Origin: Bactericera cockerelli
Taxonomy: Eukaryota; Arthropoda; Insecta; Hemiptera; Triozidae
Direction of reading: 5' to 3'
NCBI GenBank assembly: GCA_024516035.1
Contig: CM044959.1
Location: forward strand, 14,719,298 to 14,783,297
Length of the DNA: 64,000 nucleotides
Position numbers and translations under genes: made by a program. Positions 23,001 to 54,600 of this stretch are shown piece after piece; within the stretch, counting starts at the first letter, position 1; each line of letters opens with the position of its first letter. The notes beneath the pieces were generated by a model. The model was not told the DNA's origin, did no database searches, and saw nothing but the letters and a program-made list of their open reading frames with translations.

Positions 23001-25040
23001 AGGAAGAAAGTTAATAAGGTAGCGAAATTAGAAGTCGATGGTTCGAGTCCCAAGTACGTCAAAAATTTAGTAAGGCAAGAGAAATTGTGACATCAGAAAT
23101 AATAGGTATGTGATGATTAATTGATAATCCTGCCTACGGCTACGGTATTCTCTTGAACATTTAATACCCCTGTGAGGGATTGCGTAACAATAATAATAAT
23201 ACTATCCTTATACTGCCCGATTAAGACTATTAAGTCCCATTATTCCAGCAGTAAGTCCAAGACGTATTATGATGTGGTAAAAATCTAAAATGGGAGGATA
23301 ACTTACTGTCATGTCCCGGCTGGGTTTCGAACCCGCGACCTCTGGTATCTCTAGATTTACAGAGTGCCGCCTTTACCACTGAGCTATCGTGACCACTGAG
23401 CGTACTGTGTAAGATATTGAAAATCGACGCTTAGAAAGGACTTGAGATAAAGAATTTGTCTATTAATTTCGACCTTTCTTCTTTTGACCCGACTTCATCT
23501 CTTAGTATAAACAGAAAAGTGAGAAGTTGTACTAGATGTACATTAATATCAGAACATACCTGGACAGCTGTTTCGAGCTTATTTGCTCTCATCAGCTGTC
23601 CAGGCGATGCTCTCATTTGCTCTCATCTTGTTCGATAATTTCAGATAATGTTCCGGATGGTCACGTTCGGACTGAACGTGTTCGTCCTCCGTCACGTGGG
23701 CCAGGACGTGATAGGCGTGATGCACGTCCGCCTTCTCCTGCTCGAGTCCAGCATCCTGTTCCTGAGCCGGGAGGCGTTCCGGCGAGCCTGTGTCACGCAG
23801 ACCACCAGCCACTGCTGGCCGCAGGTCGTCAATCTGATCTGGCTCACGTGAGTAAGGTTATCATACACGTGATTAAGGTTATTGTCTGTCACGTGAGTAA
23901 GGTTATCATACACGTGAGTAAGGTTATCATACGTGAGTAAGGTTATCATACGTGAGTAAGGTTATCATACACGTGAGTAAGGTTATCATACACGTGAGTA
24001 AGGTTATTGTCTGTCCCGGTAGCTCAACGCCGACCCCAAATAAAATTGGGAAAAGGTGAGTGAAAGAAGAAGAAGAGGTAGCTCAGTGGTAAAGGCGGCA
24101 CTCTGTAAATCCAGAGAATCCAGATGTCGTGGGTTCGAAACCCATCCGGGACATGACAAGTTATCCTCCCATTGGGAATTTTTACCACATAATAATATGT
24201 CTTGGGCTTACTGCTGGAATAATGGGACTTTAATAGTCTTAATCGGGCAGTATAAATAAGGCGATATTATTATTATTATTCTTTCCAGAATACCTATCTG
24301 CTTGGTTCTCTGTGTGGTTCTCGGCTTCGTCTGGCTGCACTTGTTGACGGTTCCCGAGCTCAGCGTGACGTCACACTACAGTATAGGCGTCTGGTCCATT
24401 GCCCTCAGCTGCCTCATGGAGATGTGTTGTGAACCGCTCTACCTGGTGGCTCAAGCTTTCCTGTTCGTCAGATTGAGAGTGAGTAATGGAAAATATATTT
24501 TTATAAAAGTTGCTAGTTCGATTTGTTTTTTTTTTTACACTTTATCTAGGACATATTATATACAACACAAATAATTACAAATTAAAATATAATATAATAG
24601 AAGAAAAAAATAAAGAAAAAATAAGTAAATACATACATAATATATGTCCTAACTAAAGGGTGGGGTTATTGCCTTTGGCAATCTCTTCCACCCAACCCTA
24701 TTTTTTCGATTCGGGAGGGGTTTAACGTTGCTTTCAACGGTTTGGTCATAACACAACAGGGGTTTTACACTCCATTCGCTGGAAACTCACAAACCAGGTA
24801 TTCAAATTAACCACCCAGCCTGAGTGGTGTCGAGAATAGTTAGCATCACGAGAGTTCAAATTTGACTGGTCACCCACCCAAGTCATAATACCTTGCTGGA
24901 AAACGTCAATATATTATACGATCATTGAAGACTGAATTTTATGATTCTCATCATAAAATCATGAAGTTCTTGTATTTTTTAAGTTATTAAATAAAAAAAA
25001 GAGATGTTATTTCAGCATATTTATATAGGTACGCCACTTT

Positions 25041-25073
<33 letters not shown>

Positions 25074-25325
25074 CAACAAATAACTTTTATTTATTTACAT
25101 TTTTTGTTATTTACAATGCATGAAAAAAATATAAATATCAAAAAATACAAAGACAAAATTTTAAATCATAAGTATCCCATAGCCTAACGTACTTATTAAG
25201 TATGTGCTAGGCCAGTGGTTCCCAAACTTTTAGCCATCGCGGCACACCTTACATGAATCTAATTTTCCCTGAATCCCCATGAATCCTCATGAATACACAG
25301 GTTGGGAATCACTGTGCTAGGCTGT

Positions 25326-25359
<34 letters not shown>

Positions 25360-28300
25360 ACATTTATTTATAGAGAGGCCTATAACAATCGAAGTCCTTG
25401 CCCTATATATATTTTTTTTTTTTTAATTATTTATTTCATTTTTATTTCAGGCGGTGTTGGAATCCGTGATCGTGGGCGTTCGCACCGTGACCTTCACCCT
25501 CCTGGTGCTACGCTGGTCCTCCCCAGGTGCCGTGCTAGCCTTCTCCATCGCCCAGCTGCTGTCTATAGGGGCGTACGCCCTCGGCTTGTACTGCTACTTC
25601 TGGTGGTACCTGAGACAGCGGAGTCTAGGGGCGGATGATCGAGGAGGCGAAAGTATTAATGGAGGTATAATAAGAAGAATAATAATAATATCGCCTTATT
25701 TAAACTGCCCGATTAGGACTTTTAAAGTCCCATTATTCCAGCAGTAAGCCCAAGACATATTATCATGTGGTAAAAATCCCAAATGGGAGGATAACTTGTC
25801 ATGTCCCGGCTGGGTTTCAAACCCACGACCTCTGGAATCTTTGGATTCACAGAGTGCCGCCTTTACCACTGAGCTACCGGGACAGAGTTAGGGGTTATTA
25901 CTCTTCTACAGGGTGTATTAATGTATTCCTAGCTGTCTATAGGGGCGTACGCCCTCGGCTTGTACTGCTACTTCTGGTGGTACCTGAGACAGCGGAGTTT
26001 AGGGGCGGATGATCGAGGAGGCGAAAGTGTTAATGGAGGTAGGGGTTACTACTGTTTTACAGGGTGTATTAATGTGTTCCTAGCTGTCTATAGGGGCGTA
26101 CGCCTACGGCTTGTACTGCTACTTCTGGTGCTATCTGAGACACAAGACTCTAGGGGTATCGAGAAGGCGAAGATATTAATAGGGGTTTACCTTGGCCAAA
26201 CTATATCAACAGAAAACAGTCCTGATTGAAATAGATAGTAAGGGTGGGGGTTTTACCCTCCATTCGCTGGGAATCGTACGACCTACCCACATTAAGCTCA
26301 CCCAGCCTGGTTAAGTCCGGAAATGCCAGCCTCACGTGTTTGGAGGGAACAGAATTTCCTTTGAAAAGTCTGTCCCAACCGGGGATCGATTCGACAGTAG
26401 TTTCAACCGTCACGCCACGGAGGCTGGCAAATTAATGCTGAAAGCATTTTCTAGCTCTTAACCCACAGAGTGCTATTATTATGTGATCATTGGTCACATA
26501 GTCAAATAACTGAGCAGAAATTCATGCATAGGGCGGGATTATAAAGAAAAGTACAAGTCTTCATGATGGTTCAGTGCACATAGAAATATGTGGTTCAGGA
26601 CGAACCAACTTTGAAATAAAGTTGGCTGGAGACCATCATTCACCCTTCCAGCTGTAGCCAAGCTGGCTACAACAACAACAACAACAGGGTTTGATTCGAA
26701 CCAATAGATCCCTATGTTATCTGGATTACTAAATTTGTTTATGTTTCAGGCAGTTACCATGGATACAAGAAGACGGATGGGGAGAGCACAAGCAGAGCTC
26801 CTCCTCCCCTGGAGAGGAAGCAAAGTCTAGAGGAGGATTTCCCGTTTCGCTCCCTCCGCGATTTTCTGCCTAAACATCTGGAAAATGAGGTGAGAATCCT
26901 ATTTCAGGTAGACGCTGAGGCTCCGAATAGGCAGAGTAGGAACGTGCCTTACTGCGTTAGGCATTGGCATTTTTTTTGGGGGGGTGCAAAAAAATGAGAA
27001 AACAAAATTGCTGTAGTTGCATCTGCATGCATCATTTATTACGCCACTGCCGAAAGAGAGGTGAAAAGACGTCCCATATTTGGAATTTTGCTTATACCTC
27101 GAACGATACTTTTTTGTAAAAATATTGTATGAAGTAAAGTTAAAGCCAATTTTTGGAGAATTTTAATTTTATTCTCACTATTACTCTTGTACATATTTCA
27201 TTATCCTTTTATTACATCTTAACTTTGTCCTTTTAACAAATAATAGAGTTAAACCTGGATATTATGAGAGAACTCAAGGGAGCGGAATTTTTTTCTCTTA
27301 TGTCCAGGTTTCTCTTAAAAAGAGGTTATTTTCCTTTCAAGAGAGGTAAATTAAAACCTGGAAAACGACTTTATTTGTCTTTATTTTTTTCCCGCAGAGT
27401 CAAATGGACGTGAAGCTGCTTCGTCTAACATGGAGTTTTATGAAGCAAGGCCTACTCAAGCAGTTGCTCACAGATGGGGAGCGCTATGTGATGACCGTGT
27501 TCCCCCTTCTCACCTTCTCAGAACAGGTAGCTTTGTATTTCTTACGTAAACTAGCTCACCTTAGGGGCCGCAATTTTTTTTTTATAAGACCAGTGTACCC
27601 ATTGGAATTTAGGAAACCAGCCTGTCTATTGCTGAGAGTGATGGTCTCCAGGCACTTAAAGTTAAAAGTTGGCTTGTTTTGAAGCACATATTATGTATAT
27701 CTATGTGGGATCAATTATCAAATGAAAAAAAGATAGAAAAAGCTTTATAAGCCAATAAACCCTTTATTTTCTTATTTCACATCAAGAGCATTCGAAAATT
27801 TAAGCTTTCTAGTTATTTTCAGAACGGAAATATACTATAGCAACTAGTATTTAAATGTTTCTGGTACTTTACTTAGCTTGTAGAAGAAGATAAAAAAATC
27901 ACTACCACCAAAAAGTGACAAAATCTCAAATATATGAGGAAAAATCCATGCATGTAAACTAAAGTCGGCATCTGTTCTAAAAGTCTGTTCCAACCGGGAA
28001 TCGAACTCAGGATCTCTGGACTTCGGGCGGTAGTCACAACCGTTACGCCACGAAAGCTGGCTTAACACTTTTTTTTCAATACTTTCAAAAGATTATTTTT
28101 TATTCAACAAATTCTTTCATCTTCGTAAAATAATTTAAATGTAAGAGAGAAAGAAAGTAAAATTTATTTACAAACAACTGACATCACTATCGATGCTTGC
28201 CATAAGACACAGTACTCTTGTTACTTGTGTTTTGAAGTAGACAATGACGATGGTTATTTTCAGGATGGTTTGTATAGGTGGTTATGATTAATAAAATAAC

Positions 28301-31300
28301 TTATCAATACAATGAAAATTAAGAACATGGCAAGTTTAAGTGGTTTGTTCAAAATAAAGTTCATTATTGTTTGTCTACAGGGTACATTCGACATCGTCAA
28401 CAGTTTGGGCTCCCTGGCTGCGAGATTCCTGTTTCGTCCTATAGAAGAGTCCTGCTACTTCTACTTCTCGCAAGTTATACAGAGGGACGTTCCTATTGTG
28501 GAGCAAAGTCAGGTGGGTTTGCAGTATATACTGTATACAGGGTCCGCCAAAGAGAAGGAGCCACTCGAAATATCAAGAGAACGGATTAAAATTTTAGAAA
28601 ATGCTATAACACGTGTACCATAATATCGAAGGGGAAACCTTTTCTACCAGGTTTTGATTTTTTTATCATTACCAGGGGCGGCCCCAGGGGGGTCAACTAT
28701 GGAATCTTAAATGGAACCACCCAATTTGTAATTCATTTCTGAAAAGTAGTTGACATTAAAAATATTTTAATACAAGTTTGAGAGTTTTAATCAAAACAGG
28801 GCAGGAGATATCGTACATTTCATTTCACAGGTGATGCTTGTGTTTGGACAGTAATATAACTTTTTTGTTGCTAACTTCTCAGACAAATATGAAGGAGGCA
28901 GCCCGGGTGTTGCAACAGGTGCTGCGCTGTGTCACTAGTCTGGGCCTGTGGTGCTTGTGTTTGGACAGTAATATAACTTTTTTGTTGCTAACTTCTCAGA
29001 CGAATATGAAGGAGGCAGCCCAGGTGCTGCGCTGTGTCACTAGTCTGGGCCTGGTGGTGCTTGTGTTTGGACAGTAATATAACTTTTTTGTTGCTAACTT
29101 CTCAGACGAATATGAAGGAGGCAGCCCGGGTGTTGCAACAGGTGCTGCGCTGTGTCACTAGTCTGGGCCTGGTGGTGCTTGTGTTTGGACAGTAATATAA
29201 CTTTTTGTTTGCTAACTTCTCAGACGAATATGAAGGAGGCAGTCCGGGTGTTGCAACAGGTGCTGCGCTGTGTTACTAGTCTGGTGGTGCTTGTGTTTGG
29301 ACAGTAATATAACTTTTTTGTTCCTAACTTCCCGACGAATATGAAGGAGGCAGCCCGGGTGTTGCAACAGGTGCTGCGCTGTGTCACTAGTCTGGTGGTG
29401 CTTGTGTTTGGACAGTAATATAACTTTTTAGTTGCTAACTTCTCAGACGAATATGAAGGAGGCAGCCCGGGTGTTGCAACAGGTGCTGCGCTGTGTCACT
29501 AGTCTGGTGGTGCTTGTGTTTGGACAGTAATATAACTTTTTTGTTGCTAACTTCTCAGACGAATATGAAGGAGGCATCCCGGGTGTTGCAACAGGTGCTG
29601 CGCTGTGTCACTAGTCTGGGAATGGTGGTAAAGTAGTCAATGGCTTGTGTTTGGACAGTAATATAACTTTTTTGTTGCTAACTTCTCAGACGAATATGAA
29701 GGAGGCAGCCCGGGTGTTGCAACAGGTGCTGCGCTGTGTCACTAGTCTGGGCCTGGTGGTGCTTGTGTTTGGACAGTAATATAACTTTTTTGTTGCTAAC
29801 TTCTCAGACGAATATGAAGGAGGCAGCCCGGGTGTTGCAACAGGTGTTGCGCTGTGTCACTAGTCTGGGCCTGGTGGTGCTTGTGTTTGGACAGTAATGT
29901 AACTTTTTTGTTGCTAACTTCTCAGACGAATATGAAGGAGGCAGCTCGGGTGTTGCAACAGGTGCTGCGCTGTGTCACTAGTCTGGGCCTGGTGGTGCTT
30001 GTGTTTGGACAGTAATATAACTTTTGTTGTTGCTAACTTCCAGACGAATATGAAGGAGGCAGCTCGGGTGTTGCAACAGGTGCTGCGCTGTGTCACTAGT
30101 CTGGGCCTGGTGGTGCTTGTGTTTGGACAGGCCTACTCTCGTCTGCTGCTCCTGCTCTACGGAGGTAAGTAACTAACTACAACTAGGTATCTGCGAACTC
30201 TCTATTTAGTTAACACTTTTTTAAATATGTTTCTTTTTGTGTAATTCTATCACAATTTTAGTGGGTAGTGAAGAATTATAGAATTTCTCCGTATCTTTAA
30301 TATCCCAATATCTTATGTTTTGCCCATAATTCCGCCACTGGGTCGCTGCTCATAAATATAAGTGCCTAGCGCGTTAACTCACTCGGCCACGTCGACTTGA
30401 GTAGTCACTTTTTGTGCCGTTAAGAGGTCCCGGTAGACCTATGTGAGCTCAAAACCTATTGGTACAATAAATTTTGGACGTATTTGACACCATAATAATA
30501 CGTCTTGGGCTTACTGCGGGAATAATAGGACTCAATATCATCATCATAGGCTCTGTCGTCAACGTGAACGATGGTAGACAGTGGAGGAATGACTCAGCAC
30601 TTCTACCACTGTCTTTACAAGGAGGCTAATAATTGACAAGGGCCCCTAGAACTAAGCCAATGTTCGTTTACTCCCTGTTTATAGTCCCCCAGCCAGAGTG
30701 ACTCATGACTCAATATGGGAAGTATAAAATAATGAGGCTCTTTTTTAAAAAAAAAAATATTTTTCGGAATGTTTTTTCCCCTACATTAAAGATTTACATA
30801 CCTGTAAAAACTGTTAGTGTAATAGGACTCCGTGTCTCGAACCAACAGTTTAACTTAAATAAAGCACTACTCTACTAAACTAGGTATACCCTAGAATCGC
30901 ATCAGAATTAATTACTTCAGGATAGGAAATCTTACAAACCAAGCCCTTCCAGTATCGGGAAATTTTGTGTCAATTATTATTGAATAAGCTTAATATGTAC
31001 CTACCTATGTATTTTTAAGATTTTTTTTTTTCAATTACATTATTAATTATAAAAATGGAGTAATTTCTCCGTGAACTAAACCAAAAAAAAAAAATTGTCC
31101 CTGTCGGAATTCGAACCCGCAACCTTGAGCTCACAAGTCCCTACCGCATTACAGGTCCTGCGCTATCTGACGGTGGTCTAGCTCCCCTGTTGCTACGCGT
31201 CCACTGTCTGGCAGTTCTGTTCCTGGCCGTGAACGGAACCACAGAGTGCTACGCGCTAGCTACCATGGATACGGCTCAGATCGATAGGTAAGTTATACGT

Positions 31301-34185: not shown

Positions 34186-34664
34186 GCTAGTTACCCTGTC
34201 CCCCTTGTGATCATTCCTCTAATTACTAGTATAACTAAGATGTATCAACTCAGAATCTATGGTACGTTTCCTATTTATTTATTTTTGATAGAGAGAGAGA
34301 ATTTGAACAGAAATTATGTCAATTTCATAGGCAGGGAAACCACACCTTCTGGAATCGTGAAATACACACATAAAAATTACGTGTTTAAGAAAACACTCGT
34401 AATAATTATAAATTAAGTAAAAGATTTTTTTATGCATCACTCTCAGCTTGTAACGTCGACTCAAAGTCTGGTTCCTAGAAAAACAAAGTCTAAAACTTGG
34501 AACATAATTACCAGTATTAATCATTCAAATTGTAGTAGTAATAGAACTTAATTATTCTGTCTCTGATGAAATGTTTTTTCTGTATATTATAATTTATTCT
34601 GCCTCTCAAATATTACCTTACATTGAAAATTTTGACGAATGCAAAAGGTTTTAAATTGAAAGTG

Positions 34665-34858
34665 TGGTGCTCTCACAATGCAGATCGTACACGGAGTGTA
34701 GGGATATGTTGGTTCGAATCCCACCCAGTGCATGAATTTTTGCCCATTAATTTGAGTTTGTAACCACATAATAATAAGACTCTTGAGGGTTAGGTGGTAA
34801 AAAATGCTTTGAGCATTAACCTCGCCTGGTGGTTACCTTCCACTAAAGAGTAGTATTA
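34665..34858 (+). mobile_element. SINE of the 'CACCCAGTGCATG' family
   Basis: GGTTCGAATCCCACCCAGTG, then AGGGTTAGGTGGTAAAAAAT and CCACTAAAGAGTAGTATTAT. The 5' part of the tRNA-like head is degraded. Directly abuts the SINE at 34860. Confidence 0.75.
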
Positions 34859-34859
34859 T

Positions 34860-35065
34860 TCCCGGTAGCTCAGTAGTAAAGGCGGCACTCTGTGAATCCA
34901 GAGATTCCAGAGGTCGTGGGTTCAAAACCCAGCCGGGACATGACAAGTTATGCTCCCATTTGGGATTTTTACCACATAATAATATGTCTTGGGCTTACTA
35001 CTGGAATAATGGGACTTTAATTGTCCTAATTGGGTAGTACAAATAAGACGATATTATTATTATTT
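34860..35065 (+). mobile_element. tRNA-derived SINE, 'GTCCCGGTAGCTCAG' family
   Basis: Complete copy with TCCCGGTAGCTCAGTAGTAA head, GGTTCAAAACCC B box and a TATTATTATT tail. Confidence 0.9.
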
Positions 35066-35248
35066 CTTTAGTATGACGTGTATTAACTTGCCCCTCACTC
35101 TCCACTCAGGACATCCGGTTAGACTCACTGAAAAGTTTATTCTGAGAATTCTGGACAATCCAATTTATTATGACTTTCTTGCTTTAGTATTACCTCTTAT
35201 TATTGATAGTGACAGTACCTTTGTTCTTATTTGACCCAAATTACAAGG

Positions 35249-35414
35249 AGCCCGTTCCACAAAACACTCTCCACTCTCATAATCTTCCTTTTAACGTTCA
35301 CACAACGCATTCTGATTGGTTGATTTAAAGCGATAACCCGTCAGAGTGCGTTGTGTGATGTTTGAGACGGAGATTCGGAGATTTTGAGAGTGGAGAGTGT
35401 TTCTGGAACGGGCT
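35249..35414. mobile_element. Hairpin MITE, 'AGCCCGTTCC' family, copy 1
   Basis: Left AGCCCGTTCCACAAAACACT is inverted at the right as GGAACGGGCT; ACTCTCCACTCTCA is answered by TGAGAGTGGAGAGTG. Interior CACACAACGCATTCTGATTG pairs with CAGAGTGCGTTGTGTGA. Almost the whole element can fold into one hairpin. Copies at 39147 and 47650. Confidence 0.8.
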
Positions 35415-35707
35415 ACAGGTATCTTTTTTTCAAAAACTTTTGGGTGTTACAAATAAATTGATAATTACTACCCAATAATGGTCAAACGTTGAAGAAAAAA
35501 AACAGCGTTAAAAAAAGCAACCTATTGTAATTTGGGTCAGGTAAAAAACTAATTATTACAGTGAATCATATCTGAGTTGTAGATAGTTTAGTTGTGAGTT
35601 CTTAGAATCGAGCTTATTAATGTTTAATTACTATAGAACGTATACAGATTTCAGGTGTAAATGTTTGTTTGTTTTGTGGACTTTTTATTTTTCTTAGCAT
35701 GAACTTG

Positions 35708-35830
35708 GGGCGAAATTAATAGACGTTTTTATAATAGTATCTCGGTGGCGCTAAGTCTCGGAGTGTCTTAGGTGGGGAAAACCGATAAGCAATGACTTTG
35801 GTCATCAATTTTGTCTATTAATTTTGCCAT
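35708..35830 (+). mobile_element. 'GGGCGGAATTAATAGAC' MITE, complete copy
   Basis: GGGCGAAATTAATAGACG at the left, GGTGGCGCTAAGTC and a GATAAGCAATGACT block inside, and TGTCTATTAATTTTGCC at the right; the ends are inverse complements of about 17 bp. Confidence 0.8.
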
Positions 35831-36919
35831 TAGTATTAAGTCTTTGGCTTGAACAAATAAAAGAATGTATTGTGGGTGTTGGCTTTCTTCTACACTTTTT
35901 TTCTATTATACACAAATTGCTCTTTACCAATATTTCTTTGTTTGAGTGATTTTTTCAATAAACAAAAAATTATTTTTTATATAATATTGAAGATCTAAAA
36001 CTCTGATTCTCAAGAGTAAAGCCCCTATGTAATAAATAATGTCAAAAAGCTAGGACTGGTACCTAAAGAAGAAGACAACACACATGCATTTGAATAGTAC
36101 TGTGTTTAATTTTAACTTGACTTTCTTTTTGTACAAATCAATGAGGTAAATCTGTTGGATTCAATTGTAAAAATTGCAAAACGTATTTCATATATAATCA
36201 AGAAAGGCAACAGCCAGCCATGTCCTATTTGATACAATAAGCTCTATCTCTAATCTTGTGAAATAGATAGTGTCTATAATCTTGCACTAAATAATAACGA
36301 AAAAGTCCAAGATTCTGGAGATTCCTCCATTTCTATGATTAACAATTCTCACCAAGCGAGTGAAAGAAACCATACAATTGTTTAAAATTTAAACCATTTT
36401 ATTTCTAGACATATTATTTTTTGTCTATTAGTCTTTCAAGTAGGTATTACTTTTATTTAATAAAATATGGTTCTACCTAAAATTTACTTTTGTTGTAAAG
36501 AAACAATTACTTTGTACATACCTACAAAATATTAAACTTTAAAGATTATGTATTCTATTTGGGTAGAATGTATTTAAAAATAAAATCATGAAGAATTTTA
36601 CTTTTCAAAAAAATTGTTTCCCTTTTTTTCCCTTAAGTTTTTTGATTGTTTTCAAATGATGTGGCCCCAGCCAGGTTCACCCAGAAAAAAGTTATTGAAG
36701 GTTCACCCAGAGAAAAGTTATTGAAGGGGGTGTTACTCAACTAACTACCTAGTTACAATTATTTATCAGTGTGAGTATAGATAGAAATGCTGTGGAAGCC
36801 TCCTTCCTGCCTAGCAGCTTGCCTAGATAACAAAGGGTACCATAAGTCTGTGTTGAAATAACAATGACAGTGAAACTGTGAACCAGGATAAAAGAAAAAT
36901 AAATTTATATACAGATTGT

Positions 36920-37142
36920 GTACTGTACTGGTAGTCGAGTGGTTAACGCGCTAGTCTGGTAATCCAGGTAGCATAGGGGCCGTTGCGTTGGTTTGAATCC
37001 CACCCAGTGCATGAATTTTTCCTCATTAATTTGAGTTTGTAACCACATAATAATAACTCTCAGGGTTAGGTGGTAGAAAATGCTTTGAGTATTAACCTCG
37101 CCTGGTGGTTACCTTCCACTAAAGAGTGTTATTATTATTATA
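36920..37142 (+). mobile_element. SINE of the 'CACCCAGTGCATG' family, full copy
   Basis: GTACTGGTAGTCGAGTGGTT head with GCGCTAGTCTGGTAATCC, B box GGTTTGAATCCC, full body and a TTATTATTATTA tail. This copy best shows the tRNA origin of the family. Confidence 0.85.
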
Positions 37143-37184
37143 GATTGCTGCTAAAAGTACAATTGTAATAGCTAAAGATTAGTC

Positions 37185-37415
37185 TGTGTTGACGGCATAC
37201 TGAATACACCAGTTCTCATATCACTGAAGTTAAGTACACCCAGCAAGGTTAAGACTTGGTTGTTGACCATTCAAATTTAAATCCTTGTGATGCTGACTAT
37301 TCCTGACCCCACCCAGGCTGGGTAAGGTTATTGTAGGTAGCTGGTTTGTTAGTTTCCAACAAATAGAGGGTATAACCCCATCTCAAATAACCTAGATGAG
37401 ACATGACAGAAAAAA
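37185..37415 (+). mobile_element. 5S-rRNA-derived SINE copy
   Basis: GAATACACCAGTTCTCATAT, CACTGAAGTTAAGTACACCC and AGACTTGG follow 5S rRNA order, then CACCCAGGCTGGGTAAGGTT of the shared body. It ends about 60 bp from the LAMTOR5 stop codon. Confidence 0.8.
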
Positions 37416-40322: not shown

Positions 40323-40349
40323 ACAAGTCTTTGATAATTCTATAATTAT

Positions 40350-41204: not shown

Positions 41205-41465
41205 ACTGAAGATAGGCAACGCCGAACGATGGCAACCTTTGTGCATAGTGAGGATGAGGACATGGATTGGTGATTGGAATTTCGAATTCACCCATTGGTA
41301 TCGTTATCATGACAATGCAGTTTCTAGTGGCTATACCCGGGGCTACTTAAACTGGGAGTATTAGTTCATTCGAGCATCTGGATTATTTGCCCAGAGAATG
41401 CCCCTATCGTGATATAACTATGCAGTTAAAAGCGACGTTAATTCCAAATAATCTTGAAAATGACT
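41196..41465 (+). mobile_element. Diverged 5S-derived SINE copy
   Basis: TATCACTGAAGATAGGCAAC and CATGGATTGGTGATTGG keep the 5S order; the tail GTTAAAAGCGACGTTAATTCC is shared with the copy at 42540. Confidence 0.5.
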
Positions 41466-41551
41466 GAACGGATCTACATTTTCCTCTGCCGAATAACTGC
41501 TAGAGTAAAGGGGCGCCACCAATCAGAGAGCTCCAAAGTTATCACGTGACC

Positions 41552-41692
41552 TTAAGGGCGGAATTAATAGTCGTTTTTGTATTACCTCTGTGGCGCTAAG
41601 TCACGGATTGGGTACTGTTTAAGATAGGGAAAACCGATTCTAGCAATGACTTGGGATACAGAATTTTTTTATTGATTCCGCCCTTAATCTAC
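41552..41692 (+). mobile_element. 'GGGCGGAATTAATAGAC' MITE, best-preserved copy
   Basis: Begins AAGGGCGGAATTAATAG, has GTGGCGCTAAGTCACGGATT inside and ends TTGATTCCGCCCTT; the ends are inverse complements. Confidence 0.85.
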
Positions 41693-42124
41693 ATCAGCAG
41701 GGACCTGGCAGGCGCATCTCGACTCGGACATAAACTCATAAAATACCTCCGATGAAGTCTCCTAACAACGTAAATAATTAAGGGACATCAAGAGTTCCTG
41801 CCCGATACAAGGATTGTTTTTTATACATATTAAGGAGGGGATGTTGCAGTATCACTCTTGCATAGTAGTAGTGATTTCGGCCAACAATATAAATCTAGGT
41901 TTCTTCAAGAACTGGATACCATTTTCAGCAATCAGTCATTCAGTTACATTGTGACAGTTTTCTCCTAATAAATATTTCTTAAAGCTTATAAACTTTGTCT
42001 ATCATTTTGATCGATTTAATTCATTCTAACGTTACTTTGTGCTACTCTATTCTACATGCAGCTTCAGTGAAAAGCACACCAATACGAGACTCCTAATCTT
42101 CTTCTTTTTCTTTGCTTTTTCCCA

Positions 42125-42330
42125 AACCTACTTGGGGGTGTCATTGTTCAACCTCATGGTTGAGATTGGTTGGTTGTGGCACATTTTTATGCCTGGATGG
42201 CATTCCTAATGCCAACCATTCTATTTGATTTAACGTCCTGATTAGGACGAGGGTTTTACCCTCCATGCGCTGGGAATAGTACCAGCAACCCACATTAACC
42301 TCAGCCAGCCTGGGTAGGGCCAATACGAGA
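42125..42330 (-). mobile_element. SINE-like repeat with '5S-SINE body' block
   Basis: Inverted relative to 9675-9905: TGGTTGTGGCACATTTTTAT, GGATGGCATTCCTAATGCCA, GGACGAGGGTTTTACCCTCC, then CATTAACCTCAGCCAGCCTG. No pol III head visible. Confidence 0.5.
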
Positions 42331-42699
42331 GACTCATAATGATGTAATAAAAAAAAAAACACACCAATTCGTAATGCCGCCAACTAACTTTTCTCCATGA
42401 GATACAATAAGTGTTCTCCGTTTTATATCGTGGTAAGTAAATAGATTTTTTTAATGATATATTATGTAATTACAGAGGAGACTTAACAATCAAAGTCCTT
42501 GCTCCTCAGTAAATAGATTGATGACTGATCGAATACATCCATGGTCATTTGGTCATCATGATAATCCACGGTCTACTGGCTATTCCCAGACCCACTCTGA
42601 TGAGGTTAATTTGACTTCAGAAGTTTGGCCAGGGTTAAAAACCCTGTCATGTGATATGACCAAGTAGTTGAAAGCGACGTTAAAAACCAAATAAACAAA

Positions 42700-43518
42700 A
42701 AGTAGAGTAAAAATTTTCCACCCCGCAGAGATTCGAATCCGGGTTACTTGCTTACAAACCAAGTCTACTATCTACTCAGCTACGTTGCCAAACTAAAGCT
42801 AGTCAAATATAACCACAGACTCTTGGAATACGTAAATTGTAAATTATGTGACACAGAAGACTAAATAAGAGAAACATAGATTGGTTTCTTTGAAACATGT
42901 TGTTTATATTTGACATCCTAATGTGAATTTACTATTGAAACACTTTTATATGTCTAAGATTGGATTTTTTTACGTAGAAAAGAATTTTACGTAGATTTTT
43001 TTTACACTAAAAAAATTAGGTTCTTTTAGTAGAAAAAAAAAAATTACGTAGAATTTTTTTGCGCTAAAAAAATTACGTTTAAAAAAAAAAAAAAAAAATT
43101 GAATCCTAGACCTATGAGTTTCAATAATAAATTGGTTTCTTTTATTAAAATAAACATAATGTTGAATGTCTTATACATTGAGTCAAAATAAAGAATAATA
43201 AATTAATCAAAATAAACAAACAACAGAACAGTAATATTGGACTGAATAATAATACTGATACAATTTATGGGAGTATTCAATGTAAATTAGTGGATGGAGA
43301 AAAAAACCGATTTTATTTAACTTTAGTTACTGGAGTTACTTAGGGAATATCGTTAAAAGTAGGTGCCATAGCTAAGAAATTTTAAGAGCTAAGGTTGAGG
43401 CGGTTTGGATAAATTATAGAGAAGAAAATAATGTGAGTGAAAAAGAGGGAAAACCACAATTTTAGTAAAGATGAGGTAGAAGAGGATTAAGGAGAAAGGG
43501 AGGGAGGGAGGGAGGGAG

Positions 43519-43576
<58 letters not shown>

Positions 43577-45429
43577 GGAGAGAGAGAGAGAGAGAGAAAT
43601 TTCATGTGATAGTATTGATAATGTATGTATTAATTACAATGACTTACATCACCTATCTAATCTTGTAAAATAATTAAATTACAACGCCATAGTGTAGAAA
43701 CTATTGATGATTTTCTAGAGAATTTTAAAGAGAAAAACACATTACAATAAGGAATGTTGAGTTTTTTGTAAAAGAAAAATATGGATTTAAACTTAAAAAA
43801 TAGTGCGCCTAGCTGAATTTGTGCTGATAATGAGTTTTTTTTTTTGTAAAAAAACATGCCTATTTAGTTTTAAAGAAATCACTAAAACTCTAAACTAACC
43901 GTTATCAAGGAGTGTAAAGGATTACCGATGTATAAATTATTATTTATTAAGTTGAAAAAATAAAGCTGTTTAAATAGATTTACCTAGTAAAGAAAACTAT
44001 GAGGTAATTAATATTCTCAATTTACGCATTAGATTTCCACAAAAATGAGTTGAAAATTTGATTTTTTATATACCTACCTAAACATAGAGAACTGATTTAA
44101 TTTGAAAATTTAAAAGTTTCACAACTTTGGAATAGTTTTAATATTATGCAGGGTAGACAATATCTACCACTTGTCAAATATATTTTATCTACTCGTATGT
44201 TGTTTATCTTTTTCTTGTTTATATTTTTCTCAATTTTGTATTTTAATTTTCATCGTTATTTGTTCGTACATATGATCTATTCATAAAGAATTTAAAATTA
44301 ATAAAGAAAGTGTGATGGTGTTGAGGATACCACAAGAATACAACGTTACTCTTACAACCAAAACATAAGGTAACAGAAAAATTGCACGAATATTTATTCC
44401 AAATAAATTAAAGCTCCCTAGATACATGCTGTAACCAAACGAAATGGTAAATATATGTATGTACCAGATGTTCCTAGTCGAATTAAACAAAAATATTTTT
44501 CTCATTGCAATTAAATTAATTTGGTCCAAGACCAATAACTCTGTGCCTAGATACACATTACATTCAGAACAGTCATTTCAAATTTGAAAAAAAGCAACAT
44601 ATACAAGCAATATAACCTATAACTACAAAAGTTCTTTTTTTATATAATTTACTTTCTATCAACATGAAAAAGTACAAAACACACTTAACATTATCAAAGC
44701 ATTGGACACATTAAAGTTCATCATTTTAAAGGCATCTTTTCTTTTTAAAATTAAGTAGTTAAAATACCTAGTGTAAAAAAATAATTCCTATATCTTTAGA
44801 TTACTCGGAAAGAAACACAATCAATCTCTTCACTTAGATCAATTACATTGAAATCTTTCAGTTGAAGTAGTAAACAAAAATCTTTAAAATATTCTATTGC
44901 AAATCTTCAAATAAAACTAGTAAAATGGATTTTTTATAATTTAATTTTTTTAAATCTAAATAATAGCTAAGAAATCAGATACATAGGAAAATTTGCGAAG
45001 TTGGTGGTTGGCCTATTCCCAGTCTGTTGTAGATAACTGTAGTACATTACAATATTACATACATACATATACTGGTATGTATAATGTATTGATGTTGATT
45101 TGTAGAATCCGGTGCTTAGGAAACATAATATAAAGAAGGACAAAGAAGAGAGCAGAAAAGCGTTTATCAAGTCTCCTAACGCACAAACTAAAGTCTTTAA
45201 TTAATCATACTTTGGACGGAAAAGTCCAAACTTAATAAAGTTAGGAGCTGGATAAACGCATTTTAAAAGAAGTATAAAAACTTTAGAGGTTGTCAACCTA
45301 TAAAAATTCACATATTACACGATATTTCCATCACATCACAAGTAATGAACAAACTTCATTTTCGAACTGTTGGCTTTGATTAAGCTTTGAGTCGTCTATT
45401 TTAAATGCGCGTAATGACCTTTCAGACCC
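42700..45429. other. Intergenic stretch, low-complexity, no gene seen
   Basis: AT-rich DNA with poly-A and poly-T runs, AAAAAATT/ACGTAG simple repeats near 42960-43100 and a GA microsatellite at 43495-43600. Short open frames show no recognisable domain. Confidence 0.5.
43495..43600. repeat. GGGA/GA microsatellite
   Basis: A GGGA repeat of about 24 bases runs into about 70 bases of GA repeat with two GG interruptions. Confidence 0.95.
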
Positions 45430-45594
45430 TTAACACTTAGACGACCGGGTGTACCAGAGGTTGTACAAGCGTGTCTGTATGAAATTAAAACGGTATTCCA
45501 CAAGTGGTACACCCATGTCTGTACGGAATAATTATCGCCGGTACCATGTTTTTAGTGAGTTCTCACTAAAAACATGCCGATCGTCAACTGTTAA
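45430..45594. mobile_element. TTAA-flanked MITE (piggyBac-type target), copy 2
   Basis: TTAACACTTAGACGACCGG at the left; ATGCCGATCGTCAACTGTTAA at the right end region, ending in TTAA at 45591-45594. A short inner hairpin (TTTTTAGTGAG / CTCACTAAAAA) lies near 45550. The element ends just 3' of the PP2C-like gene. Confidence 0.7.
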
Positions 45595-45631
45595 CTAACT
45601 AGCTGGGCTGGTCTAATCACGCATAAAAAAT

Positions 45632-48600
45632 CTACTTGTGCGCTTTCGACGCGTCTTTCCGTCTGGAGGGGCCACCGTCTTTCCCTCTCCCCGAATGAGA
45701 CTTACTACCGCCGCTTCTGTCCTTAGCACTTGACCCATCGCTCCTACTAGAGCCTGTCCGAATTTTCCGATCGTCCTTTCCCCGCCTATCCTGACTGACA
45801 ACCTTAGTAGGCTCCGAGTTTTTGTCTCGCGTCCTATCTCTCACACTCTGAATGTCCATTTTAGAAGCATCCCCACCAGGGTCTCTATTTCCACTGGACT
45901 TCTGTGCAACCTGTTGTACGTTAATACGCCCGTCTGTTTCTTCAGATACTCTGGCAGTCGTATCAGACTCTTCTTCCGTTTCTTTGGTTGCTACCTTGGA
46001 GTTGCTTGTAGGTTTCTCTTCACTCACCTCTTCTTCGCTATCATCAATATTCTCGAACTCTTCCAATCCCTCATTCAATCTCACTCCCTCACTCAACACT
46101 TGATCTCCTCTCTCTTTCCCCTCAATTTCTCTCACTCTACTTCCTTCACACTCAACATTCACTCCCTCTTCCTCACTACACCTTGCGCCTCCTAACTTCT
46201 CATACCTTTTTCTTCCACCTTCTCTACCAAATTTTTCTTCCCTACTTTCAGAATTTCCCTCTCTATCACTTTCTCTCCCAGTCTTCTCATTCTCATTTTC
46301 CTCCCAAGATTCCTTGTCTTCTCCCTTCTGATTATCTTTCACTCCCTCACTACTTCCCATCTCTCGTTTATCATTCTCTTCTTCCCTATCCCGCTGCCTC
46401 TCGCCCTCTCTCTTCCTCTCCACCCACTCACTGCGATACTCTCTCGTGACTTCCTCCTCCTTCTCTTTCCTCTTTTCATCTTTCACTCCCTCACTATTTC
46501 CCATCTCTCGTTTATTACTTTCATCTTCCCTATCCTGCTGACTCTCTCCCTCTCTTTTCCCCTTCACCCTCTCTTTCCTCTTTTCATCTCTCACTCCCTC
46601 ACTACTTCTCATCTCTCGTATATCACTTTCTTCTTCCCTATCCCGCTGACTCTCGCCCTCTCTTTTCCTCTCCACCCTCTCATTGTCATCCTTGACCTCC
46701 TCCTCCTCTTTCCTCTTTTCATCCCTCACTCCCTCACTATTTCCCATCTCTCGTTTATCACTTTTCCCCTCCACCCTCTCATTCTCATCCTTCACCTCCT
46801 CGCCCTCTCTCATCCTCCCCACGACATAAGCCGCCACACTGGCGTGATCCAGTTTCCCGGGAATGGCGTGCATCCTTTTGCACAGTTCACGCCGCCGCCG
46901 ACTGATCTGCTGTCCTTGTGTCATGGCGGTGGCGGTGCCGGTGCCAGTGGCTCCCGGGGTGCCAGTGGCTCCCGGCGTGCCAGTCATGTAGAGGTCCCTG
47001 TCCTCCAGAATGCCCCGCTTGGCCCCGGTAAGGCGGGACACAAAGTCGAGGAGGAGAGAGACGACATCCTGCGCTGAGGATACGGGAGGTCCTTTGCCTG
47101 GCGACACAATAACAATGATGAGAGAAACAATTAAAATTTATTATTTTAACGGACTACTACAATATTGTAGTTGCCTTTCCGACACAGCATTACAATCAAT
47201 CAGAGGACATTGTATTCATAGATTTTTTTTTTCTTTCTTCTTTCTGGTGAGGTTCATTCTTTCTGGTAAACTTCTTTCGAGTTCAACTTTGGTTTGAATA
47301 TAGATGTTTTTGTATGATATGAAGGGTATCTTTCATAACTGTTAGACAGAGTTCTTCGAGTCTTTGCCGTTGTATATTATTGGTTAAGAAAAATTGTTTT
47401 AGGAATGGTGATGCTGTTCCTCGCACGCCAAACCACAATCCAGACAGTCAAATCTGGTTATAAGAGAAACCATAATATAGATAGATCTTACTAGGTCACA
47501 ATAGATCTTAATTGTATGGTGTTTCATCTGAAACCCTGCAACCAGGTATTATAATAATAATGATGTACAGAAAATATTCCAGGTACAATTTACCTCTTTT
47601 TAGGTGAAATTAACCTTGAGTTCTTTTATACCCAGGTTTGACTGTACCTGAAACCCATTCCAGAAACACTTTCTACTCTCCAAATCTCCCTTTCAACTGT
47701 CACACAACGACCTCTGACTGGTTAATTTGAACGCATTAACCAATCAGAGTGCGTTGTGTGACAGTTTAAAGTTCGGAGATTTAGAGAGAAGAAAGAGTTT
47801 CTGAAACGAACTACTGGTATATTATGTTACCTACGAGAAGGTGTCTTTTTTAACATTTAAAAATCCATACATATCAAATTTTAACAATACTAATAGTATA
47901 AGTAGTGCTTTTTTTAGACTGTCAGAGCAAGACACGTAGTCCTATTATGCCAACAGTTTAACAAAGCACCTCTTTATTTATTTGAGTATAAATACAATGT
48001 AGGTTTGAACAGGTTTGAAATGCGGTATATTCGGAACTGACTCGAATTTGTTTCAATTAATTTCGTGCTAAATAAATCAGGCCAATACTCACCCGACACT
48101 CCATAACGCAGAAGATCCTCAGTGCGCAGAAGCAGGAGCTTGTGTCGCTGGTGAGCCTCTACCGTGGGGAGACCTGTCGAAGTGAAATACTTTTGTTAGA
48201 CTCTAGTGGGGGTTTGTCTTGTATTGCAGAATAAAACAGTGCTAAGAATTTGAACTAAAATCTGTCTCGGTAGCTCAGTGGTAAAGGCGGCACTCTGTGA
48301 ATCCAAAGATTTCAGAGGTCGTGGGTTCGAAACCCAGCCGGGACATGACATGTTATCCTCCCATTTGGGATTTTTACCACATAATAATATGTCTTGGGGT
48401 TACTGCTGGAATAATGGGACTTTAATAGTCCTAATCGGGCAGTATAAATAAGGCGATATTATTATTATTATGTTAAAATCTCGGCCCCTATATGTAACTT
48501 GCCACAAAGTTCTAAGCAACCAAACTCTAAACTTACCACAATTTTTTTTCCAAATGTTCATAGGTGCCGACAGTGTAAACTTGCACGAAACTTCGTAAAT

Positions 48601-51600
48601 CTCGATAACTATAAAGTCGTCACAAAAGAATTGCCAAATCTCGGCACCAACTTGAGTAAACTTTCCAAAAAAATTGCCATAACTCGGCACTCACCTAAAA
48701 ACTCGTTACAAAAAATTCCCAAATCTCAATGCCCGACTATAAAGGCATAAAAAAAGCCAAATCTCGGCACCCGTCTATAAAGGAATACAAAAAAGAAGCC
48801 AAATCTCCAAATCCATCTGTAAAGTCACCACAAAAAATAGTTCCCAAATATCGGCCCTCACACATAAACTCGTCACAAAAAGTTGCCAAATCTCGGCACC
48901 CAACTAAGTAAACTCTCCAAAAAATTGCCATTACTACAAACGGCACCCACCTACAAACTCGTCAAAAAATTGGCAAATCTCGGCACCCGTCCATAAAGAA
49001 ATACAAAAAAAGAAACCAAATCTCCAAATCCGTCTGTAAAGTCACCACAAAAAAAAGTTGCCAAATCTCGGCCCTCACCGATAAACTCGTCACAGAAAGT
49101 TGCCCAATCTCGGCCCTCACTCATAAACTCGTCACAAAAATTTGCCCAATCTCGGCCCTCACACATAAACTCGTCACAAAAAGTTGCCCAATCTTGGCCC
49201 TCACACATAAACTCGTCACAAAAAGTTGCCCAATCTCGGCCCTCACCCATAAACTCGTCACAGAAAGTTGCCCAATCCCGGCCCTCACTCATAAACTCGT
49301 CACAAAAAGTTGCCCAATCTCGGCACCCACCTGTAAACTTGCCCACCACCGGGTCCAGATTGTCCGACACCCCGTCTGACGTGAGGAACACGATGTCCCC
49401 CTCTTCTACTTGCGTCAGGGACAGAGTCAGGTTGGAGAGCTCGGGGTTCTGACCATCCACAGGGCCCAGGGCTCCTAGAGCATCTCGCATGTCCCGCATC
49501 TGATGCACGTCGTGAGATCCTGACGAGATTATATAAAAAAAAAATAATGAATAGACAAATTTATTCCATAAAATATATAAGACCTGTTTGACTGCTGGAG
49601 TAAAAGGACTTTTCGGTATTACCTCGGCAGTATAAACAAGGTATATTCTATTCTAAAAAAAAAAAAAAAACATTAAACTAATGAATGAGAGTTTTAAATT
49701 CAAAACAGAATTTTTCCAATTTTCTTTAGATTTTTTTTATTATTTTTTAAAAGATGAGTGTTTTACAGCCTTTTACGTTGAATATACCAGTTCTCGTTCT
49801 ATCACTGAAGTTAAGCAACGTACAGCAAGGTTAGGATTTGGATGGGTGACCATAATGACCATTCAAATTCGAACCCTCGTGATTTTGACTTTTGCCAGCC
49901 CCACTCGCGCTGGGTGATGTTCATTTTCAATAGGAATTCTGTGAGTTTGTGAGTGATATCACGATTGTGATTAACACAAATATAATGACTAAATTAAATA
50001 TTTCACCTATTACAATCGTATTGTTATTATTGAATTCTTTCTTAAAAGGACATGTGTACAAACAAGTAATGATAAAAAATGAAAGACAAAATTGAGAACA
50101 ATATAAACCAGAAAAAAAGGACAACAACATGGATAAAATGTATACCTAATTAAATATGTCATAACTAAAGGGCGGGTTTATTGCCTATTATTATTATTAT
50201 ACAACACTTTATCTTAATATATAAATGTCAAAGTCACTGACTGACTGACCACTCACTGACTGATCATCGCTCTACAGCCCAAACCGTAAGTCCTAGGAAG
50301 CTGAAATTTGGTAGGTAGCTTTGTCTTCTAGTCTAGATGTGCAATAAGACGGGATTTTTCGAAACTCCCACTGCAACACTTGCCATTGGCGAAAAAGGAT
50401 TTTTTGCTTTCACGGCCATGCCTCGGCCCGCAATGCGGGCGACAGCCCGCTAGTTAGACATAAATGGACATTATGTACATACAAATAATTATTTTAACAA
50501 TGAAAAAAATGGAAACAATATATACAATAAAGATGAAAAAGAATAGAAAATATATAAAAACATATGTCCTAACTAAAGGGCGGGTTTATTGCCTATGGCA
50601 ATCTCTTCCACCCAACCCTTCGTATGTACAACATTATGTACATTGTACATACAATTAATTATTTTAACAATGGAAAAAATAGAAACAATATATACAATAA
50701 AAATGAAAAAGAATAGAATATATATATAAAAACATATGTCCTAACTAAAAGGCGGGTTTATTGCCTATGGCAATCTCTTCCACCCAACCCTTCGTATGTA
50801 CATTTCCTCGGCTACATGTAAATTCCCCCGGTTTTTTGAAAGGTTCGTATTCCGGTTGTAATATTTCCCCCGGTAAAATATTTGATTACCTGAGGGTTTC
50901 ATGGTAAATTCCCCCGATTCTGTACGTATAGGTATAAAATTGTATATTGTAGGTATGTAGGCAATCAAATAGATGATTTGATGAATTGCTTATCTTGACC
51001 TTAACTTTAGTTTCCGATTAGACTTTAGTAGGTATTGTGTCTAATTTCTAACTATGTCATCAATAAAGATTTTAACTAGTGAACGTGGAAAAAAAATCTT
51101 TTACTTATTGCTTCCAAAGTTGAGTCTTACAAATCAGGTGCAATCAGCAATTTCTCTACAATTCTCTACATTTTATTATCTTTACTCTCTAATGGTTGTT
51201 AATTTATTACATTGTATTTATACTCAAATAAATAAAGAGGTGCTTTGTTAAACTGTTGGCATAATGGGACTACCTGTCTTGCACTGACAGTCTAAATAAA
51301 GCACTACTTATACTTATACATACCCTGCGTGATCTCCCGCACGCCATACTTGGGACTGAACACATAGGCCAGAGAGTCGCCCACGTTGCACGTGCAGACC
51401 ACGTACTGACGAGCCTTGCTGGTGGTGCCCCGGCCAGGGTAGCACCACGGTCGCTGTGAGGGTGGTCAGCATGCCCTTCTCCTGCAGGATGAGGGAGTGG
51501 GCCGCGTGGAAGGAGCGGAGCAGAGAGGTGAATATTTCCTGGGGGGATAAATAGTAGATACTTTAGACCAGGGCTGCCCAACCAGTCGATCGCGGAGTGA

Positions 51601-54600
51601 TTTTGGATCGATCACGTCCAGAGAGGTGAGATCTCACACAAGTGAAAATCCGAGATCTCCTTCCTTAACTCATGAGAATTAAAATGAGGTATCGTTAGGG
51701 GGTCGATCGCGTTGATTATCTGAAACTTTATAGTAGATTTTCTTCTGTAAATGTTATCCCCCCAGGAATATTTCCTGGGGGAATAAATAATAGATACTTT
51801 AGAGGAAGGTAACAACAGTCAATGAGCGGAGTAGAGAGGTGAATATTTCCTGGGGGATAAATAATAGATACTTTAGAGGAAGGTAACAACAGTGAATGAG
51901 CGGAGCAGAGAGGTGAATATTTCCAGGGGGGATAAATAGTAGATACTTTAGAGGAAGGTAACCATAGTCAATGAGCGAAGCAGAGAGGTGAATATTTCCT
52001 GGGGGAATAAATAATAGATACTTTAGAGCGCGCGATTAGCTCAGTGGTTAAGCACTCGCTTGTCATGCGGAAGGTCCTGGGTTCGATCCCCCGTTCCGAC
52101 AAAAATTTGTATTCTTAATTTGTTTACAATTGTTTGTAAGGGATACCTTCCGGTGCGCTCGTGTTGACCCAGCACCTAAATGGGAAGTATTGTTTCACTT
52201 TTCGCCCATCAGAGGGGAGGCATACTACGGGAAGGGTAGGCTACAACACAGAGCACAAGCGTCTACAGTAGCTCCTGTTTCATGGCTTCGAAATAAAAAA
52301 GGCTGTGAAACACTCATCTTAAAATAAAAAAAGGTAACCACAGTTTCATGTATTTCATGTACTTTTACATTAGTCAGCGAAAAGTTTTACATGATTTTCA
52401 GAAAGTGCAATTTTTATTGCAGAAATGAACTTTACGTCGAAAAACGAATTGATTTGACTTTTTGTTTGACTTACTTGGCCAACGGGAACCCTATTTTTTG
52501 TGAATATAAGAGAAACCTCGATATTTCTATTTATAAGAGACCTTTAAAGAACGATTTCCATTTATAAGAGAAAGGTGGATATAAGAGAGAAAAATTCCGG
52601 TCCCTTTAGTTCTTTTATATCCAGGTTCGACTGTACTATATCCAAGCCACTAGCCAAAAAAACTAGTGAAGATGCATTGTGCTTCACCACAAAGACATAA
52701 TACTTAACTTATAATTTTTACTAAAATAGGGCGAAAAATTAATGCTGACAAAAACTTGTTATTTTGTCATAACTGTTATGAATAGTAAACTTGGAGAAAC
52801 CAGTTATCTTATGAATTACAACAGTCACAATAGATCTTATTATGTCACAGTGTTAATTGTATGGAATTTCTACTGAAACCCTACAACCGTCAGATCTTAT
52901 GAATCACACTTTTCAAAATTCCCTACTCATATTTACTTAAAATTATAATGTGATTAGGAATGGAAACTTGTATTAATATAATAATAACACTCTTTAGTGG
53001 ATGTTAACCACCAGGCAAGGTTGATGCTCAAAGCATTTTCTACCACCTAACCCTCTGAGTCTTATTATTATGTGGTCACAAACTCAAATTAATGAGAAAA
53101 AATTCATGCACTGGGTGGGATTCAAACCAATGGATCCCTACGCTACCTGGATTATCAAACTAGCGCGTTAACCACTTGACTACCAATGTATTACCCTCTC
53201 TAGTTTAATTGATTCATTATTAAACAAGTTTATTCTTTATTCACATAAATTAGAGGAACATGAACTATTTTTCCCCCAAATGACATATACTTCCATGCGT
53301 TTGAAACATGCTGTACCTAATGTTGTTGACAACAATTTCTGATGATTTTTATTTTGAATAAAAGAAAACCGCATATTTATGATGGATTTAGACTCAATGA
53401 AAAGTTTCTCCAGGAATAATCATCATAGATATAGGATAAAAAATTGAAACTTGGGAAACGCAGAATTTACAAGTGTTTTAAAACATGCTCAGCTTACTGT
53501 TTATTTTAATTATGGATAGATTTTCCTGGGGTCTGGCTGGGGGACTATAAGCAGGGAGTAGACCAGTAGTCTGGCTGGGGGACTATAAACAAGGAGTAGA
53601 CCAGTATTGGCTTGGTTCTGGGGGCCCTTGTCAATTATTAGCTTCCTTGTAAAGACAGTGGTAGAAGTGCTGAGTCATTCCTCCATCGGTCTGGCTACCA
53701 TCGTTCACGATGACGCCACCCTATGATGATGATAGATTTTCCTCGCTCGGTGCTATGATTCACCGAGCGGAAAAAGGAGCTCGCGAGAGACGGGTTGGAC
53801 AACTGTGCTATAAAGTTAATTTCTCAGAGTCACTGTGGCCGAGTGAGTTAGCGCGCTAAGCATTGCACGCATGGTGACCTAGGTTCGATTCCCAGCGGGG
53901 GAGGATTTTTTCTGCTCTGTACTTGGATGTTCGGGGTCCACTCATACCTCGTGAAGAAAAATGAGTAGCTGCTTTGATGTGAAGCAGCGACCACTGGCAG
54001 AATCATAGGCAAAAAATAATACAAGATATTGTAAATTAAAGTGGTAAAGTCCTAAGATTCTGCGCTACCCACTAAAATTGTGACATAATAACACAAAGAA
54101 AAAGGATTATTATTATTATTATAAGTTAATTTCTCACCGTGGTAGTAGTAGGCTTAGGCGAGGCTGAGCAAAATATGTGCTGGTTCAAGTAGTCCATACA
54201 GCCATGCACTGCTGCCTTGGCCGCCAGGCTCGCCTTCACCCCCCAGTTGACTCCATCTGCTAGGCAGAGAAGGGCAGAGTCCTCCCGCACTATCAGGCCA
54301 TAGCAGTCGGCTATGGGGTCTCCAGCCCTCAGTTGAGTCACTGGGTGTACCTGAAATAAATATAGTTTTTTTTTTTAAATATTTTTTTTTTTTTGAAAGT
54401 TTACGGAACAAGTTCCATTTGTACAAAAATCTTAAAATTAAATAAAAAATAATTTATAATAATTTCAAAATCATAAATCCTAGCTAGATTTACATACTTA
54501 AAACTACTTACCAACTAAGATTAAACAGACCAAAGTATGAAGTTAGAAATGAAACCATTTCATCCTTTGTACAGAAAAAGACATCGACTCCAGCACCGCT

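Follow-up and report, generated by a model that had tools for sequence, protein, structure and literature searches.

Tandem arrays at coding-exon edges in Bactericera cockerelli, probably founded by local duplication of splice junctions and stop codons

Tandem arrays in a 64,000-nucleotide stretch of the Bactericera cockerelli genome (the window) and in its surroundings are best read, at a probability that we put at roughly 60%, as minisatellites born from tandem duplication of coding-exon edges and tolerated because the copies are spliced out or lie in a UTR. The founding unit would straddle the edge of a coding exon, mostly at donors and also at acceptors and stop codons. An earlier note on this DNA had described tandem arrays on six exon/intron junctions in two genes, RFT1 and a PP2C-like gene. 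Arrays in the window were now sought independently of the earlier coordinates, using TRF and a self-BLAST search for direct repeats within 2 kb. All six exist, and their units do combine a real splice signal with some exon. Five of them contact the true junction. The exception is the array ascribed to the PP2C-like exon 5 acceptor, which, though built from junction copies, is separated by 228 bp from the true acceptor (51538) downstream of it and does not overlap it. Six of the seven window arrays with at least three copies are at or derived from splice edges, and the seventh is in the charged last exon of the PP2C-like gene, which alone in the window showed arrays in an exon interior.

The nine exons of RFT1 were spliced by hand out of the window sequence and join into a single open frame. 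A Pfam Rft-1 match spans residues 1-502 of the 504 in the product, which has 78% identity to RFT1 of Cacopsylla melanoneura and 72% to a Diaphorina citri model; a search against the PDB gave no match. The open frame, the Pfam match and the identity to the Cacopsylla protein show the exon edges to be real. As a side observation, the RFT1 models of two other psyllids look odd near exons 8-10. The RFT1 features are as follows.

23645..23847, plus strand: RFT1 exon 2 (spliced reading frame, Pfam Rft-1)
23844..24007, plus strand: RFT1 exon 2 donor array, 21-bp unit in 7.8 copies, unit TCAC/GTGAGTAAGG... with the exon edge at the slash (TRF, sequence)
25451..25664, plus strand: RFT1 exon 4 (spliced frame, exon finder)
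25558..26190 (right end approximate), plus strand: RFT1 exon 4 donor array, 151-bp unit in 3 copies, with a SINE inside copy 1 (self-BLAST, sequence)
28830..30130, plus strand: RFT1 exon 8 acceptor array, 118-bp unit in about 11 copies (TRF, self-BLAST)
30044..30164, plus strand: RFT1 exon 8, the true copy at the array end (spliced frame, exon finder)
31752..32504, plus strand: RFT1 exon 10 acceptor array, unit of about 324 bp in 2.3 copies (TRF)
32893..33142, plus strand: RFT1 exon 10, the true copy (spliced frame)

The share of exon in the unit varies, from just 3-4 bp in the exon 2 donor array to 86 bp, joined to about 32 bp of intron tail, in the 118-bp unit at exon 8, where the final copy continues into the true exon. 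In the exon 4 donor array a tRNA-type SINE sits in copy 1 immediately 3' of the donor GTA, and because of this interruption the array was missed by TRF and is visible in self-BLAST.

In the PP2C-like gene the following features were placed.

49331..49519, minus strand: PP2C-like exon 6 (read from sequence)
48609..49339, minus strand: PP2C-like exon 6 donor array, degenerate 42-bp unit in 17 copies (TRF, sequence)
51324..51538, minus strand: PP2C-like exon 5 (sequence, exon finder)
51766..52028, minus strand: array derived from the PP2C-like exon 5 acceptor, 75-bp unit in 3.5 copies (TRF; self-BLAST cluster 51509-52028)
46311..46984, minus strand: in-frame repeats within the PP2C-like last exon, TRF periods 108 and 18 (TRF, self-BLAST)

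The exon 6 array reaches the donor at 49331/49330. The exon finder agrees with our reading on the acceptor of this exon, and extends it through in-frame copies of the array.

TRF was then run on the whole of 264 kb, comprising the window and 100 kb on either side, and arrays with a period of 20-400 and at least 2.4 copies were kept, with overlaps removed, giving 42 arrays. The earlier note had suggested that edge arrays may be gene-specific, and this did not hold, as they also occur in genes for a glutathione synthase, an Era-like GTPase, APC2, a VPS35L-like protein, an amino-acid transporter and several kinases. The glutathione synthase donor array (Pfam GSH_synthase) repeats the last 46 bp of an exon with 9 bp of intron 17 times. 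Four donors carry arrays, with units of 23, 54, 99 and 86 bp, in a gene that we take to be VPS35L-like; two of its exons were searched against Pfam and none matched. The Era-like GTPase exon, named from an NCBIfam match below the cut-off, bears a donor array, and the transporter exon (Pfam Aa_trans) has both a donor array and an acceptor array spanning about 1.9 kb. In APC2 the true donor falls at 181858/181859 in the coordinates of the whole 264 kb, and an array of exon tail and donor is displaced about 250 bp beyond it. Stop codons are spanned in two to three further families, in APC2, in glutathione synthase and in what is probably the C-terminus of a PTP. The first two C-termini align with the Pfam profiles ANAPC2 and GSH_synth_ATP, respectively, through the final profile position.

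Because an array grows by inserting copies and takes in no flanking DNA, an exon edge can be present in it only through the founding unit. The appropriate null model therefore scatters founders, with the unit lengths observed, at random positions. The test covered 35 array families, with units totalling 1969 bp, in the 264 kb. For an assumed 96 (the hand-curated list), 150, 200 or 300 splice edges, 0.75, 1.16, 1.55 or 2.33 families are expected to hold one. A true splice edge lies inside 11 of the 35 (three in the window and eight outside), giving P values of 5e-10 to 8e-7 for 96-200 edges and 3e-5 for 300; the eight families outside the window give 2e-7 to 3e-5 alone. The count rises to 13 edge-derived families with those of APC2 and PP2C-like exon 5, whose arrays are displaced. 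Two families contain a stop codon, or three with a weaker filter; an assumed total of 12 stops predicts 0.09-0.17 (P = 0.004 and 0.0008), and for 20 assumed stops P is 0.011 and 0.003, respectively. No tie to a splice or stop edge was seen for 20 of the 35 families. Under a looser null, in which whole arrays are placed at random, 4.5-9.4 overlaps are expected and the P value for 11 is 0.007 to 0.34. This null predicts the edge at any position in the array, whereas the edge falls within the terminal unit in all 16 arrays counted by hand (probability about 1e-10). Junctions with at least two local copies (7/43 donors, 3/44 acceptors) are not more frequent than such intron DNA (323/2357), but this coverage is no test of founding because the arrays themselves sit in introns. 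The exon list behind these counts came from a home-made finder followed by hand curation, and edges were assigned by eye with a local copy search; the finder regained all nine RFT1 exons and 17 of their 18 edges, RFT1 being also in its training set.

The 264-kb region was picked because of the finding. A sample of kinase exons was not: from 134 protein-kinase matches in the genome, 20 exons that encode part of the domain, to which eight were added afterwards, were chosen blind to arrays, on 12 contigs. Edge-derived arrays were seen in 3/20 and 3/8 of these exons, at eight edges altogether, listed here by locus.

L037: donor
L040: donor
L051: acceptor and donor
L059: donor
L063: acceptor
L064: acceptor and donor

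The two arrays in L051, and likewise those in L064, are mutually unrelated. The main donor array of L037, L059 and L064 lies about 200-270 bp inside the intron, a displacement like that of the PP2C-like exon 5 and APC2 arrays. With a filter of score 150, period 20 and 2.4 copies, ten arrays were retained in the kinase sample. With chance predicting 0.50-0.56, eight of them derive from an edge (P about 1e-7), and five overlap one (P = 2-3e-4); the two without an edge assignment are an array of 60-bp units in L062 and a 38-bp TE-like array in L050. For a pooled count, 48 exons hand-picked from 105 finder predictions (array copies and doubtful ones being dropped) were joined with 23 of the 28 kinase exons, leaving out L043, L052, L053, L062 and L066, whose edges are unsettled. 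Array-bearing edges were set by hand, counting displaced arrays; for PP2C-like exon 5 the start used is 19 bp off. Among the 71 exons counted in this way, 16 donors and 7 acceptors carry or have seeded arrays, a donor excess that is not significant (binomial P = 0.09). Fifty exons have no array, 19 have one at a single edge and two at both, so that 23 of the 142 splice edges, about one in six, have seeded arrays.

Donor signals were also sought in the arrays themselves. In the 264 kb, donor scores of at least 8 bits occur in 18/42 arrays against 4.5 in GC-matched random segments, those of at least 9 bits in 11 against 2.4, and acceptor scores of at least 4 bits in 8/42 against 5.9, one cluster of related arrays entering these counts several times. 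In a word search that used no splice model and collapsed related arrays to 36 families, GTAAG is the most over-represented 5-mer, AGGTG second and GTGAG fifth, and GGTAAG leads the 6-mers, with P values of about 0.001 to 0.008 each, uncorrected for the number of words. Donor words have no clear lead among the 7-mers, where AGGTAAG stands 17th among those listed. Genome-wide, the donor word AGGTAAGT, taken three times with gaps of 12-42 bp, has 2887 matches, and five control words of the same letters have 204, 105, 144, 523 and 462; the donor word is thus 5.5-27 times commoner in arrays as raw matches, which count copies rather than arrays. In the 264 kb the donor word has a background count of 29 and the controls have 13, 28, 16, 37 and 7, which gives 99.6 matches per background count against 15.7, 3.8, 9.0, 14.1 and 66. 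The last value, which approaches that of the donor word, belongs to ATGGATGA and is based on only seven background counts. Among the donor-word matches listed, about 105 places represent seven arrays, all within the initial 8 Mb of contig C1; among those listed for AGTAGGTA, about 100 places are spread across C1, C2 and into C3. By eye, three of the seven C1 arrays are exon/donor-like and two, which are paralogues, adjoin an apparent acceptor on the opposite strand; the remaining two fit neither pattern clearly. Peptides of two of the exon/donor-like arrays were searched against Pfam, one giving no match and the other Tropomyosin below the cut-off. In 22 arrays picked by an unrelated word, donors of at least 9 bits occur in four against 0.7 expected, and donors of at least 7 bits in four against 2.4.

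The arrays have the form of minisatellites, with head-to-tail units of tens of bp by TRF and some longer, to about 324 bp. That they do not belong to one mobile element, as the earlier note held, is supported: the 118-bp unit, the only unit searched through the 565 Mb genome, has six matches, all at the RFT1 locus, and the units of different arrays look unrelated. At two loci about 95% identical to each other (alleles or paralogues), which bear what we take to be an S6K-like exon, there are 7 and 3 acceptor units and 5.7 and 3.2 donor units, which suggests that such arrays change in copy number. A step in GC content at the exon edge was considered as a cause and is not supported, since array edges show a smaller step (0.129 vs 0.183); their exons are slightly GC-richer (0.564 vs 0.539, P = 0.047), as is the flanking intron (0.409 vs 0.348).

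The arrays might have arisen by short local tandem duplication of an exon edge with its adjoining intron or UTR, through slippage, template switching or end-joining. The copies are located 3' of the first donor, 5' of the last acceptor or past the stop. If the first donor or last acceptor keeps its place, as this anatomy suggests, the mRNA should be unaltered and the copies should leave with the intron. Array size would then change by slippage or unequal exchange. Wholly exonic arrays would persist only when in frame and tolerated, so that survivors would accumulate at edges. In two long coding frames the interior TRF periods (18 and 108 in one; 33, 33, 72 and 171 in the other) are all multiples of 3, as selection on the reading frame leaves these. 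Further arrays, located at 88.6-89.4 kb and at 191 kb in the 264-kb region, may be coding too.

These periods are what would be expected if duplications were uniform genome-wide and only exonic ones were purged. Such survivorship alone is improbable, because introns tolerate duplications and selection cannot enrich edges over introns: it predicts 0.75-1.55 splice-edge families rather than 11, and unpurged intron and intergenic founders should dominate, yet the families without an edge tie are only 20 of 35. Exon or exon-edge DNA thus appears also to be duplicated more often, with founders several times to about ten times denser than uniform. A process linked to splicing or transcription (R-loops, spliceosome-linked breaks) that duplicates junctions, donors most, would suit the 16 donors against 7 acceptors and the donor words that top the 5-mer and 6-mer lists. 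We nevertheless consider it unlikely, as the donor excess is not significant and stop codons are also spanned, so that splicing is not required. The junction-duplicating process proposed in the earlier note therefore survives in part: splice edges are over-represented as founders in the window, in the surrounding 200 kb and in the kinase sample, but the stop-codon arrays argue against a splicing-dependent cause. Duplication aimed at junctions and exon-wide duplication with purging of the interior would give the same picture, and the stop-codon arrays favour the latter. Whether a mutational process in this lineage preferentially tandem-duplicates coding-exon edges, with about one splice edge in six having seeded an array, is to us an evenly balanced question.

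Selection for decoy or back-up splice sites, also raised earlier, is very improbable. Many copies retain an intact GT or AG, but in ten arrays pooled the splice core shows no greater conservation than other unit positions, with 60/1079 mismatches against 179/5276 elsewhere, or 22/950 against 119/4713 without the degenerate PP2C-like array. Splice signals in the copies drift as other unit positions do, which indicates no upkeep as decoys, and stop-codon arrays could have no such role. We give just as little credence to an artefact of the assembly. PP2C-like exon 5 does contain a 1-bp frame shift, which is either an assembly error or a damaged exon; however, array copies diverge by substitutions and indels, one contains a SINE, and arrays recur at duplicate loci in other copy numbers.

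Ordinary minisatellites and VNTRs have units ranging from tens of bp to a few hundred. The present arrays share this range and the variation in copy number between duplicate loci, and differ in that their founders cluster at coding-exon edges. The minisatellite of human IFI6 is said to have a 12-bp unit. It yields multiple splice donor sites (IFI6, or 6-16; Turri et al. 1995, as cited in PMC4526556) and is the nearest precedent. As there described, it resembles our donor arrays, and these only, in that the tandem unit bears a donor consensus at the exon end with extra donors downstream. Unlike that one gene, the present case comprises many unrelated units, spread over many contigs and placed at acceptors and stops as well as donors, the donor copies being putative splice sites. 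Intron gain through tandem genomic duplication has also been described (PMC4974935, PMC2891723) and, from these accounts, likewise involves a local tandem duplication that includes splice signals; there the duplication creates a new intron, whereas here, in our reading, existing introns absorb the copies and the protein is unchanged. An intron of that origin would be expected to be missing from relatives and flanked by a duplicated AGGT. A genome-wide class of edge-founded arrays was not found in a literature search by title and abstract start, in which coverage of subscription papers and preprints is thin.

Whereas the known splice-donor minisatellite belongs to one human gene, arrays were founded here by about one in six of the exon edges examined. 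These arrays provide many parallel cases of copied splice junctions, in which to study how splice sites are chosen, how introns grow and how introns or exons are gained, and they may mislead gene predictors. If the reading is true, the edge-duplicating process would keep supplying extra splice sites, lengthening introns and providing raw material for new exons and introns.

Tandem arrays whose units derive from exon edges continue beyond the window. The APC2 last exon is present in three tandem copies on the reverse strand of the same contig (about 14791621-14793815, 8.3-10.5 kb past the window end), and TRF on the joined 264 kb (the window plus 100 kb on each side) places arrays of a stop-codon unit next to at least two of them. 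The ABC transporter gene lies in two overlapping open frames and is therefore intronless or nearly so; TRF found no arrays in it.

Mobile elements and further genes in and around the window.
Window 17238-20450, - strand: LINE-type element with long open frames
Window 55087-57000, - strand: LINE-type element with long open frames
Window 20414-22477 and 54508-55086: open frames adjoining the LINE-type elements
Window 60866-62948, + strand: ABC transporter gene
Joined 264 kb, 166943-167071 (partial copy) and 167445-167625 (full copy), + strand: Era-like GTPase exon

The two LINE-type elements carry reverse transcriptase and endonuclease domains. At the RFT1 exon 4 donor, a tRNA-type SINE (window about 25668-25885) follows directly 3' of the first three intron bases, GTA, and SINE sequence similar to it is found elsewhere in the window. 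PP2C-like exon 5 (window 51324-51538, - strand) contains a one-base frame shift, each half being open in a different frame, which reflects either an error or damage.

The partial duplicate of the Era-like GTPase exon stands some 500 bp upstream of the full-length exon.

Near-identical pairs are common among the 134 protein-kinase matches in the genome. The two members of a pair often share a contig and are separated by 0.1-0.5 Mb; positions 19326933 and 19626711 of contig C11 are an example. These pairs look as if they were second haplotypes retained in the assembly, or else recent segmental duplicates.

Diaphorina citri and Cyamophila willieti have RFT1 gene models in which sequence around exons 8-10 is missing or garbled, and it is around these same exons that the largest RFT1 arrays of the B. 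cockerelli genome are found.
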